DNA from: a virus
Virus record (IMG/VR): IMGVR_UViG_3300028025_003270
Span: 1-36,269 of that record
Reading direction: 5' to 3' (one strand)
DNA: 36,269 bases
Shown: positions 29,615 to 36,269 of the stretch, piece after piece
Position numbering within the stretch: position 1 is the first letter of the stretch
Layout of the letters: each line of letters opens with the position of its first letter
Made by a program: the position numbers and the translations under genes
Notes under the pieces: generated by a model
The model's input: only the letters and a program-made list of their open reading frames with translations
Databases searched by the model: none
What the model was told of the DNA's origin: nothing

Positions 29615-32047
29615 ATGAGCATTTTGCAATCAGTGCAATCACATCCTGCATCAGTCGATGCGTATATCCGACATGGATGGAGTCTTGTCCCGATACCTGC
29701 TGGCACCAAGGGGCCGCGCACCCCTGCATGGAATCTGAAAGAGAACGCACTGCGCAGTCAGACCGATCTGCCTGCGGGCTTTGGCATCGGACTGGCCCAT
29801 GCGTACAGCGGCACGATGGCGCTCGACATCGACAACTGGGACGCAACGGTCAAGCACGGTATTGATCTAGCTGCACTCTATGCTGCGCCTGATGCCGTGA
29901 TCGTTGACAGCAGTAGGCCAGGGCACGGCAAGTTGTTATATGCGATGCCATTCGCATTGCCATCGAAGAAGATCATTGTCGATGGTGTAACCGCTTTCGA
30001 GCTTCGATGTGCAACTGCATCGGGGTTGACCGTGCAGGATGTGCTGCCGCCCAGCATTCACCCTGATACGGGTCAACCGTATAGGTGGGCTGGCAGTGGT
30101 CATTGGACAAGACTGCCACTCATACCTGAGTCGATTCTGTCCTTATGGCAGTCGATGCTTGGTGAGGATAGGTCGCGCAGCATTCCGACAGATGGGCCAA
30201 TCGGTGCATCGTGGAGTGAGATCAGGTCCGCAGTCGATGCGATCCCACCTACCTGCACCCGCGATGAGTGGATCAGTGTGGGCATGGCGCTGCATTACGC
30301 AGGCACACAAACAGATCAACTGCATCAGGCGTTTTACCTGTGGGATCAATGGTCACAGGGCGCGCCTTACAAATACCCTGGCCCGCACTCGATGGTGGTG
30401 CAGTGGTCGAGCTTCAAGCCTGACAAGGCTACCGCGGTCAAGCTCGGCACCCTGTACTGGCTTGCCAAGGAGAACGGGTGGGTGCGCCCACCTATTGACG
30501 TAGCTGGCTTGTTTGCTGCAATACCGACACTGGCTCCCGCGACGTTGATCGAGGAGTTCAAGCCACCCGCACCTGATATCGATCTGAGTCTGTTCCCAAA
30601 AGTTTTGGGCCAGCGAGCGCAGGAAGTTAGTGATGCAGTCGGATGCGATCCGCTGATTCCGCTCTTTGCTGGCCTGGGTGCTGTGTGCGCGGTGGTCGAT
30701 GCGCGCATCAGGCTGGAGTTGATGCCAGGGTTCAAAGTGCCGCCGATTTTGTGGCTTATGACAGTCGGCGCGCCAGCAGATAAGAAAAGCCCAGGTAGCA
30801 AGCCTATGCTGACCGTGCTCAAGGCCATCGAGCTTGAGGACCGCCCACGATATCAGCAGGAGTTGCTGGACTGGGAGGGTAAGGAGGCAGCACATGCCGC
30901 GGCTAAGCGAGCATTCTTAGAGTTTGCAGCCTCACCCGAGGCCATGCTCGGTGGGTCACAACCACCCATCGTACCCAACCTGCCCGCGGCACCCGTGCCG
31001 CTACGCTTTACGGTGTCGGACATTACGTCACAGAAACTGGTGCGCAGTGCGGCAGAGCGTCCGCGTGGGCTGTTGTGCTATCTCGATGAGATGTCGGCCT
31101 GGGGTAAGAAACTGACCGATAAGAACAGCGGGGAGGACCGCTCGGCTTGGGTGGTGTCTTATGAGTCGGAATTTTATGAGATGGACCGAGTCGGTGCTGG
31201 AAGCATTTTTTGTGAGAATTTAGCTGTTAGCATTTTCGGAAACATTCAGCCCCGAGTGTTCTCCGAACTATTGCCGAACATGTCAGCCGATGGGCTATTG
31301 CAACGGTTCATCCCCGTAGTGCTACGGGGTAACCGCACTAGGCTCGGCAACCCGTTGCCCGAGTGGGCCGGATCGGCTGCGCAGTGGGAGTCTATGCTGC
31401 GCACAATTTACTCGCTGCCCGAGCAGACCTACACGCTGTCAGATGACGCCTACACTGAATTTCGAGCGTTCCAGGCGTGGTATGAGGAACGCAAACAGGA
31501 TGAGCGGCTGTTACTGTCGAACGATACGTTCATGACCGCATTCGGCAAGCTTGAGGGCACCACGGGCAGGCTTATCCTGATATGGCACATCATGGAACAC
31601 CCGTATCAGTCACGGGTAGATGTGCAGACTGTGCGCAGGGTTGTTCAGTTTGTGCGCCAGTATGTGATCGCGTCACTACGTTATGCGTTCGGAGAGCTTG
31701 AATCGTTTAGTGGGTGGCTGTCCGACTATGTCATCCAGCACTGCGACAAGGGTACGCTCACGATGTCAGACATTCGCAGATCAGCGCGCAGGCAATTCGA
31801 CGGGATAGCACCATACGCCCAGGAACAGACGATCCTGAACAACATGCGAGAGCTTGAGCAGGCAGGGTGGACAATCCGAATCGACGATGGGACACGCGAG
31901 CACCAGCACCATGCAGAGTGGGCACTGAATGCAGGATTAAAAGAACGGTTTGCAGACTACCGTCGCCGGGTGGTGCAGGCCCGGCAACGGCAAAAGGACG
32001 AAAAACACGGGGTCAAAATGCCCCCCGTATGGGGGTCGGACGATTAG
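29615..32047 (+). CDS. Primase-polymerase with PriCT and DUF3987 helicase-like domains
   Basis: 810 residues from ATG 29615, which begins the recognisable domain; the frame is open upstream to 29483 but that part crosses the promoter and terminator. The bifunctional prim-pol domain (about 1-180) has ALDIDNWD (D71, D73) and SIHPDTGQPYRW (S147, H149). A PriCT-2-like domain (about 199-290) follows. A DUF3987 ATPase-like domain (about 320-700) has GAPADKKS (385-392) in the P-loop place and LLCYLDEMSAW (D491, E492) as Walker B. It would prime and unwind for the phage polymerase. It is the only rightward gene in the early half, and its stop overlaps a leftward gene. Confidence 0.88.
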   Translation: MSILQSVQSHPASVDAYIRHGWSLVPIPAGTKGPRTPAWNLKENALRSQTDLPAGFGIGLAHAYSGTMALDIDNWDATVKHGIDLAALYAAPDAVIVDSSRPGHGKLLYAMPFALPSKKIIVDGVTAFELRCATASGLTVQDVLPPSIHPDTGQPYRWAGSGHWTRLPLIPESILSLWQSMLGEDRSRSIPTDGPIGASWSEIRSAVDAIPPTCTRDEWISVGMALHYAGTQTDQLHQAFYLWDQWSQGAPYKYPGPHSMVVQWSSFKPDKATAVKLGTLYWLAKENGWVRPPIDVAGLFAAIPTLAPATLIEEFKPPAPDIDLSLFPKVLGQRAQEVSDAVGCDPLIPLFAGLGAVCAVVDARIRLELMPGFKVPPILWLMTVGAPADKKSPGSKPMLTVLKAIELEDRPRYQQELLDWEGKEAAHAAAKRAFLEFAASPEAMLGGSQPPIVPNLPAAPVPLRFTVSDITSQKLVRSAAERPRGLLCYLDEMSAWGKKLTDKNSGEDRSAWVVSYESEFYEMDRVGAGSIFCENLAVSIFGNIQPRVFSELLPNMSADGLLQRFIPVVLRGNRTRLGNPLPEWAGSAAQWESMLRTIYSLPEQTYTLSDDAYTEFRAFQAWYEERKQDERLLLSNDTFMTAFGKLEGTTGRLILIWHIMEHPYQSRVDVQTVRRVVQFVRQYVIASLRYAFGELESFSGWLSDYVIQHCDKGTLTMSDIRRSARRQFDGIAPYAQEQTILNNMRELEQAGWTIRIDDGTREHQHHAEWALNAGLKERFADYRRRVVQARQRQKDEKHGVKMPPVWGSDD
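32015..32035 (-). terminator. Possible minus-strand terminator after the accessory operon
   Basis: CCCCC (32022-32026), loop GTAT, GGGGG (32031-32035). Read leftward, the stem is followed by GCATTTT. It lies 9 bases past the stop of the HTH gene at 32044 but inside the prim-pol coding end. The T-run is short, so the call is moderate. Confidence 0.4.
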
Positions 32048-32289
32048 GCTTTCCGTTGCCGACCGCGGCCCGACCTAGGGGCGGGAACGAACGCGGACAT
32101 GATCGCGGGAGCGATTGCGTCCAGCGTATTGAATACATCGATCAGACGATGGGCTGCGGCACTGGGTGTGCGGTTACCATCGAGCCATTTACGGGCTGTT
32201 GTCTCCGGCACGCCTAGCAGCGTAGCCAATCCCTTGTCATCTAAATCATGGCGCGCCACTAGGGCGCGCACTTGGTCTTGTGCGCTCAT
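32044..32289 (-). CDS. Small HTH protein, XRE-like (81 aa)
   Basis: 81 residues from ATG 32289 with GGGAG 6 bases upstream. The HTH is DKGLATLLGVPETTARKWLD then GNRTPSAAAHRLIDVF, a Cro/XRE-type or HigA-antitoxin-like pattern (about residues 18-52). The C-terminus is basic (PRSGRGRQRKA). It may be a phage transcriptional switch or an orphan antitoxin-like regulator; no toxin partner is seen beside it. It is the last gene of the right-hand leftward operon and converges with prim-pol, overlapping it by 4 bases. Confidence 0.72.
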   Translation of the reverse strand: MSAQDQVRALVARHDLDDKGLATLLGVPETTARKWLDGNRTPSAAAHRLIDVFNTLDAIAPAIMSAFVPAPRSGRGRQRKA

Positions 32290-34889: not shown

Positions 34890-34941
34890 GGTGTGTTGTC
34901 CTGTGTGTGTTGGAAGGGTGCACCCTGTGCACCCTGGGTGA
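34887..34941. repeat. Repeated intergenic leader, copy A
   Basis: This stretch is nearly identical to 35449-35499: start codon, AGGACAACACACC leader, then GGGTGCACAGGGTGCACCC. The only difference is one extra GTGT unit (4 bases). It contains the ribosome-binding site of the gene at 34889 and a partly palindromic GTGCAC pair. Confidence 0.85.
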
Positions 34942-35451
34942 TCACGATTCGGATTCGGCTGCGCGATTGCACTCAATCTGTTGATCGCGGGTCAGATCGC
35001 GCCAATGGTGAATCAGAGCGAACGGGTAAAGCTGTTCGGGGTATTCGACATGCAAGGGTCGAACCTGGGTGCCGACGATGCGCCACAACGCACCCCATGT
35101 GTCCTTGGACACGCTCATGCACTCGGCCACCTCGTCGGGTGTCCAATACTTGAAGATTTCATCCGGCACGATGGGCTCGGGCACTGCGGGTGCATCGGGC
35201 ACTGCGGGTGCATCGGGCACAGGACGACGTTGGGTCATGGTGTACCGGCCTGCATCGTATTCACGCAGCACCGACTGACCCAGGCAGTCAAGCTCGAAAT
35301 CGAACAGCTCAACCCATCCGGTGATCATGCGAACCGTATCGACAAAATGAGCTTCGAACATTGAATTATTGGCAACGGAAGCGGGTGCCGTAATGATCAG
35401 GATTTGAGGCTTGCCGTAATCGCGGCCAGTGCGGTAACTGATCGTTTTCAT
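34942..35451 (-). CDS. Unknown protein with VPDAPA repeat (169 aa)
   Basis: 169 residues from ATG 35451 behind the repeated leader. The N-terminal domain is MKTISYRTGRDYGKPQILII then HFVDTVRMITGWVELFDFEL. A short linker repeats VPDAPA. The C-terminal domain (IFKYWTPDEVAECMSVSKDT ... YPEQLYPFALIHHWRDLTRD) holds a helix pair reminiscent of a helix-turn-helix. No family is recognised. It may be DNA- or protein-binding. Confidence 0.6.
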   Translation of the reverse strand: MKTISYRTGRDYGKPQILIITAPASVANNSMFEAHFVDTVRMITGWVELFDFELDCLGQSVLREYDAGRYTMTQRRPVPDAPAVPDAPAVPEPIVPDEIFKYWTPDEVAECMSVSKDTWGALWRIVGTQVRPLHVEYPEQLYPFALIHHWRDLTRDQQIECNRAAESES

Positions 35452-35499
35452 GGTGTGTTGTCCTGTGTTGGAAGGGTGCACCCTGTGCACCCTGGGTGA
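35449..35499. repeat. Repeated intergenic leader, copy B
   Basis: Second copy of the leader described at 34887-34941, again ending exactly at the stop region of the upstream gene and beginning at the start codon of the downstream gene. Such repeats could be regulatory RNA elements, binding sites, or traces of gene-cassette shuffling. Confidence 0.85.
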
Positions 35500-35502
35500 C
35501 TG

Positions 35503-35703
35503 TTACGCGAACCGCGGGCAGATGATGAATTCAGGCGATTTATCCCATCCGTGGGTGCGCGCGATTGCCAGCATCTCAGCCTGTGCCTTGCTGCGCAGAC
35601 TGCAACGGATCAGAGCACTGATCGAGCGGGCTGCGAAATTCGCTCCAAGGTGAGGCGCATAAGCCAGGATTTTCGACATCTCTTTTCTTTCAAGGTTGTT
35701 CAT
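35503..35703 (-). CDS. Small unknown protein (66 aa), first gene of right-hand operon
   Basis: 66 residues from ATG 35703, behind CACACACAGGACAACACC. MNNLERKEMSKILAYAPHLG then FAARSISALIRCSLRSKAQA. Basic and helical, ending in GWDKSPEFIICPRFA. Not recognised. As the gene nearest the putative control region it would be transcribed first, a typical place for a host-takeover protein; that is inference. Confidence 0.58.
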   Translation of the reverse strand: MNNLERKEMSKILAYAPHLGANFAARSISALIRCSLRSKAQAEMLAIARTHGWDKSPEFIICPRFA

Positions 35704-35887
35704 GGTGTTGTCCTGTGTGTGTTGTGTCTGTCTGTCTGTTCTCGGGTGCTGCGCACTCAGCATAGCGTCTACCTGCACCCTGTGCAAGCATTTACCCTCA
35801 CAATTTACAATCTTTCACAATGGACAAAGGGGTGTGACAAGTTGACTGGAAACGGGGAGTGCCAATCCTGGAAAACCTGGAATTCTG

Positions 35888-35900
35888 TACCCACTGGGTA
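35888..35900. promoter_or_regulatory. Palindromic operator-like site
   Basis: TACCCACTGGGTA is a perfect palindrome around a central C. It lies about 17 bases downstream of the leftward -10 candidate, a place where a repressor would block transcription. Only the symmetry is seen. Confidence 0.3.
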
Positions 35901-36004: not shown

Positions 36005-36050
36005 GTCTGCACCCATTGTGCAGTCTGCACCCATTGTGCAGTCTGCACCC
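36005..36050. repeat. 18-bp tandem repeats (2.6 copies)
   Basis: GTCTGCACCCATTGTGCA occurs at 36005-36022 and 36023-36040, with a partial third copy (36041-36050). Each unit holds an imperfectly spaced TGCAC...GTGCA inverted pair. There are no spacers, so this is not a CRISPR array. Confidence 0.9.
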
Positions 36051-36084
36051 TGCACCCTGTGCGCCAGGGTGCACAGGGTGCAGG
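36049..36084. repeat. Perfect inverted repeat, 14-bp arms
   Basis: CCTGCACCCTGTGC (36049-36062), loop GCCAGGGT, GCACAGGGTGCAGG (36071-36084). A perfect GC-rich 14-bp stem with an 8-base loop abuts the tandem repeats. There is no T-tract, so it is more likely a protein or replication structure than a terminator. Confidence 0.85.
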
Positions 36085-36205
36085 CCGGCCTGGGTGTGCC
36101 TGGGTGCAGCTTGCACATGGTGCATGTGTGCCAGGGTGTGCGCCTACCTGCACCATGTGCACATCACATTGTGTACTTACACAGCACGCAAATGGGGTAT
36201 TAAAA

Positions 36206-36256
36206 GGGTCGCGCAGAGTGGCAAAGGGGTCGCGCTCGGCTGTACAATGGGTCGCG
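36206..36256. repeat. Three iteron-like direct repeats GGGTCGCG
   Basis: GGGTCGCG occurs at 36206-36213, 36227-36234 and 36249-36256, with spacings of 21 and 22 bp, about two helical turns, preceded by A-rich bases (AAAA, AAAG, CAAT). Phase-matched direct repeats of this kind are typical of initiator or activator binding. TACAAT (36243-36248) between the second and third copies resembles a -10 element. Confidence 0.7.
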
Positions 36257-36269
36257 TAACAGTCACCCA

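Follow-up and report, generated by a model that had tools for sequence, protein, structure and literature searches.

Repeated AAAGGGGTCGCG motifs, possibly operators, beside a conserved terminase-linked DNA element in freshwater podoviruses related to phage DSL-LC05

Three copies of GGGTCGCG at the right end of an uncultured podovirus contig are the window's share of a small array of AAAGGGGTCGCG iterons. The array stands at the 3′ end of a long control region, between leftward early genes and a rightward late operon that begins, in relatives, with terS and terL. Each copy would be the target of a sequence-specific DNA-binding protein, of phage or host origin, that occupies the cluster and controls transcription of the late genes (from terS), of the early genes, or of both at the early/late switch. 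We lean towards this operator-type reading, which sequence comparisons suggest, and we hold it tentatively. Taken alone, the GGGTCGCG triplet is nothing more than an ordinary set of likely binding sites; it matters because it led us to a conserved DNA element linked to the terminase and to an early/late control region that many uncultured freshwater podoviruses share.

The window is the whole of a linear IMG/VR virus record, IMGVR_UViG_3300028025_003270 (36,269 nucleotides), and the record ends at position 36269. The DNA is a piece of a podovirus of the P22-coat kind, a relative of phage DSL-LC05. Among the predicted proteins there are matches to the P22 coat protein, head-closure protein Hc3, DNA polymerase, an exonuclease, a gp2.5-like ssDNA-binding protein and a helicase, and a Prim-Pol/PriCT_2/DUF3987 protein is also encoded. 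No terminase match was obtained among the window proteins tested, and no tRNA was found in the window. The left edge (1–143) opens inside an open frame ending in MMPPEGMMPQ which, from the DSL-LC05 gene order, may be the C-terminus of the portal protein; about 4 kb, with terS, terL and portal, thus seems to be absent between the right and left ends of the window. DSL-LC05 is the nearest named genome, a metagenome-assembled phage placed in the proposed new family ‘Luchaoviridae’ (PMC10611076). It shares the Prim-Pol of the window phage (67.9% identity), its TerL is 80% identical to that of a relative, L004, and it has the conserved box described below before terS and a repeat array in the equivalent position. 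The DSL-LC05 repeats differ, being ACCCACTGGGT palindromes and CGGGGTGCG runs, not AAAGGGGTCGCG.

A preliminary description of this DNA had reported three identical 8-mers, at spacings of 21 and 22 bp, in non-coding DNA between 36206 and 36256. Both points hold exactly as claimed: GGGTCGCG occupies 36206–36213, 36227–36234 and 36249–36256, always on the + strand and 21 and 22 bp apart from start to start, and the repeat stretch lies outside every reading frame that is conserved or has a family match. The number of copies is unremarkable, as the window contains three, none of them elsewhere, with 2.2 expected. Their clustering is rare in shuffles, any 8-mer occurring three times within 51 bp in 1 of 200 shuffled windows, and the real window holds several other 8-mer clusters of three within 51 bp. 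The longer repeat unit around GGGTCGCG is AAAGGGGTCGCG, and the last 470 bp hold three copies with at most two mismatches to it, versus 0.02 in shuffles (Table 1). The 21–22 bp period could be due to chance, there being only two spacings. Scans of the region for promoter and terminator consensus sequences found none in the window and, in the relative L041, one 9-of-12 promoter-like site.

Table 1. Features of the window that bear on the repeat array and its control region.
Feature	Position	Strand
81-aa helix-turn-helix protein; weak HTH_31 match; homologue of the DSL-LC05 ‘repressor protein C’	32044–32289	-
Nearest leftward early gene; homologues in L041, L042 and L004	35503–35787	-
Lone perfect ACCCACTGGGT palindrome; operator-like unit, arrayed in other clades	35889–35899	
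Second repeat set, same control region: TGCACCCATTGTGCA in two exact copies, plus other TGCACCC/GGGTGCA sites	36008–36165	
Iteron copy 1, AAAAGGGTCGCG (1 mismatch to AAAGGGGTCGCG)	36202–36213	+
Iteron copy 2, AAAGGGGTCGCG (exact unit)	36223–36234	+
Iteron copy 3, CAATGGGTCGCG (2 mismatches to AAAGGGGTCGCG); 3′ half in the suspect tail	36245–36256	+
Last 21 bases, a 20/21 inverted copy of 35493–35513; probable fold-back chimera	36249–36269	+

The tail of the contig is suspect. It includes the third copy of GGGTCGCG, and the segment of which it is an inverted copy is the end of the leftward early gene. In L004, L041 and L042, which are close relatives, a G-rich box, and not TAACAGTCACCCA, comes after the last iteron; for this reason, the tail, with its copy of GGGTCGCG, is read as a probable fold-back chimera, joined at a shared TCGCG where the contig ends. 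This leaves copy 3 supported by its upstream half (CAATGGG).

The right end of the window is syntenic with L004, which continues into terS, encoding an Sf6-type terminase small subunit, and terL; thus, the control region with the repeats separates early genes that run leftward from a late operon that runs rightward. The box and the terS promoter lie outside the window and are placed from the relatives, most of which are fragments, and counts of relatives are not phylogenetically independent. The AAAGGGGTCGCG motif is found at the same position in four of them: two weak copies in L004, two copies plus one inverted in L041, three plus one inverted in L042, and seven plus one inverted in L074, which was found by DNA pattern alone. 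Copies with two or fewer mismatches number 2–8 per relative, versus at most 1 in 300 shuffles of each, and reversed-pattern controls gave zero copies in the same four sequences. All exact or one-mismatch copies lie in the control region except one (L004, 9008). The TerS proteins of L041 and L042 are 98% identical to each other and 90% identical to that of L004; the TerL of L074 is 71% identical to the TerL of L041. A paired-motif scan of viral contigs gave 23 hits, of which two are L074 and L077 (the contig of L041). The other 21, without any tested window, terS or terL protein, look like chance or other repeats.

The preliminary description had allowed for more copies beyond the window edge and had taken absence of the repeats from close relatives as evidence against its proposal; further copies are present in L004, L041 and L042, and the motif is kept in these and in L074. 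Its picture of protein-binding faces phased along the helix survives in part. The array of probable sites is real, and helical phasing as its defining property is not supported, as the iteron spacings are 17 bp in L041, 22 and 16 bp in L042, 21 bp in L004, and 36, 37, 22, 14, 23 and 24 bp in L074. On these spacings, the idea that GGGTCGCG keeps one fixed phase along the helix was rejected.

Between the iterons and terS, the relatives carry a box of about 80 bp that comprises a G-run, AGGGCC, CATCACGAAC and an A/T tract. The consensus is a G-run, TAGGGCCGACGG, CATCACGAAC (28 or 27 bp after AGGGCC) and then AAAATTTTTT, and the gap between the box halves is 27–28 bp in 45 of 50 anchored cases. 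When 2.9 million viral contigs were scanned for the box, 32 stretches were recovered, about 25 of them with terS and/or terL directly downstream; the other seven, without the G-run, look like chance. Of 82 terL loci examined under a strict rule, 47 have the box; several of the others start downstream of it or carry variants outside the rule. In one locus, L296, a run of C replaces the G-run (about 2560–2611), an odd local inversion or an assembly error. The box occurs with two TerS types that have no mutual similarity over their length (BLAST), and a single genome with a replication protein of another family, MW202483, has a degenerate box and another array before its terminase genes. Since the box is kept with unrelated TerS types and in MW202483, it is linked to the terminase rather than to replication. 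With both TerS types it is adjacent to, and inherited with, the terminase genes, as a cos or pac would be, and it is a probable packaging site. Gene sharing links an isolate, Rhodoferax phage P26218, to DSL-LC05, and no box can be recognised in it; published work describes the P26218 genome as terminally redundant or circularly permuted, which does not separate cos from pac here.

The case for operators begins with L004, L041, L042 and L074, which have this motif in the equivalent position, as repeated sites in a divergent control region. It is extended by the clades in which the motif is replaced. Among 106 contigs that bear the box, 96 have more repeated 9-mers than shuffles do in the 400 bp leading up to it, and the units vary by clade (CCCAATGGG, CCCACTGGG, CCCAGCGGG, TGCACCCTG, TTGCCTACA, AAGGGGTCG and others) and are often palindromic, like operators. 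Clades with ACCCANYGGGT have a further copy of the palindrome between the box and terS, and the copy nearest terS keeps register with the terS extended −10: the distance is 32–34, 42–45 or 52–53 bp in 29 of 31 non-redundant spacers (L160, L164, L172 and L182 are examples). The remaining nearest distances are 90 and 91 bp, with second copies at 75 and 86 bp. The phasing has R = 0.76 at 10.5 bp against a null of uniform distances that ignores relatedness, and a fitted period would be a little under 10 bp. True helical phasing thus exists in the relatives for ACCCANYGGGT relative to the terS promoter, not for GGGTCGCG. From these one-turn jumps between unrelated spacers, ACCCANYGGGT looks like a site for a late-promoter transcription factor. 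A different palindrome, similar to GTTAGTGAGTGCTCACTAAC, occurs upstream of the box in several clades (L041, L042, L195, L222 and L231) and resembles the operator of a dimeric repressor.

In having several copies of a short motif in an early/late spacer, the array is like the clustered operators found between divergent phage operons, and in other clades of this group the likeness extends to palindromic units, one copy of which is in helical register with the late promoter. It is unlike them in that AAAGGGGTCGCG is asymmetric, directly repeated and away from a promoter: the terS promoter is about 200 bp, and the start of the early gene about 500 bp, from the iterons. Moreover, the argument from the other repeat units is carried to AAAGGGGTCGCG by position only, and the box register considered next would fit packaging equally. 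The preliminary description had entertained an activator array for early transcription; this is less likely than control around the late terS–terL operon, which starts just beyond the window edge in relatives. No matching title came from a search of the literature for iterons or palindromes located ahead of terminase genes.

A role in packaging is a serious possibility, if a somewhat doubtful one. Here, the iterons would belong to the pac or cos site where DNA packaging begins, and would flank the box, at which terminase would cut, as accessory sites or as sites for TerS binding. What places this role close behind that of an operator is the fixed register of the nearest iteron, which starts 37–38 bp before the end of the box core in L004, L041 and L042, together with the precedents of λ cosB (R1–R3) and SPP1 pac, which are multi-site TerS recognition regions (PMC4669245). 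In those systems as here, at least three short sites lie near terS beside a conserved element, which in the present case is a candidate for the cut. Also favourable are the tie of the box to terS–terL in the contigs found by DNA pattern, its rigid gap, and its persistence with a TerS of unrelated type. The layout differs from that of λ in that the box separates the iterons from terS, and from both precedents in that iteron type is independent of TerS type and the cut site is putative. In fact, L074 has the iteron of L041 and L042 but a TerS of the other type, and the siblings of the L074 TerS (L195, L222, L226 and L233) are without the iteron. The co-variation with TerS expected of cos or pac sites is thus not seen for the iterons, and TerS as their simple binder is disfavoured.

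Contig ends bear on the same question. Five contigs start within 40 bp 5′ of the ATCAC in the box, and two more start in the box among the terL loci, compared with about a dozen starts in the next 2.4 kb. Such clustering is as expected for physical ends and favours packaging, but drop-out at a badly sequenced G-run would give the same, most long contigs run through the box, and among the five, one start is beside primer sequence and one is a circular contig cut there. Two loci, L311 and L318, are the two ends of IMGVR_UViG_3300037502_000824; these carry an identical 127-bp end repeat, cut inside the box. That length is the size of a common assembly k-mer, and the genome looks circular in the assembly. 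The contig end of L316 terminates in GTTTCCCAGTCACGATC, presumably a random-amplification primer left in the assembly.

It is unlikely that the repeats are by-products of local duplication or slippage in a repeat-rich spacer, with no binding function. Copy number and spacing do change fast, simple tandem repeats are nearby, and the tail is itself an inverted copy of an internal segment. Against this, the same 11–12-mer is held in genomes as diverged as L074 and L041, and the copies share their orientation with unrelated sequence between them. A replication origin, which the preliminary description had offered as one possibility, is slightly more improbable still and was rejected: direct repeats near 21–22 bp (in the window) beside a G-rich box and an A/T tract do recall the layout of iteron plasmid origins, in which iterons accompany G-rich and A/T-rich stretches, and the phages encode a Prim-Pol/DUF3987 replication protein, but iteron spacing is not conserved, neither the window nor DSL-LC05 shows a GC-skew extreme at this point (with some 4 kb absent from the window and the influence of gene strand left in), and the conserved neighbour goes with the terminase and not with the primase, MW202483 keeping its degenerate box and array before the terminase genes despite the other family of replication protein.

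It is tempting to propose, more speculatively and as a rather unlikely whole, that a large group of uncultured freshwater podoviruses has an undescribed, terminase-linked packaging element (the box) that is kept with unrelated TerS proteins and flanked by fast-changing, clade-specific arrays, AAAGGGGTCGCG here, and that a factor binding these arrays couples late transcription to packaging. The natural contrasts in the group, namely one box with unrelated TerS proteins, repeats that change by clade and palindromes in register, make packaging specificity and late-gene control testable.

The 81-aa helix-turn-helix protein (Table 1) is a candidate regulator. The true start of the nearest early gene is probably the ATG near 35704. 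A scan with the early protein encoded at 34942–35490 found a single relative. The spacers before the early genes and the control region also carry GGGTGCAC/TGCACCC sites (34906–34941, 35464–35499 and 36008–36165), with nine exact copies of GGGTGCAC versus 2.1 expected and, among the sites of the early-gene spacers, two identical 36-bp copies. These sites would form a second, separate repeat regulon.
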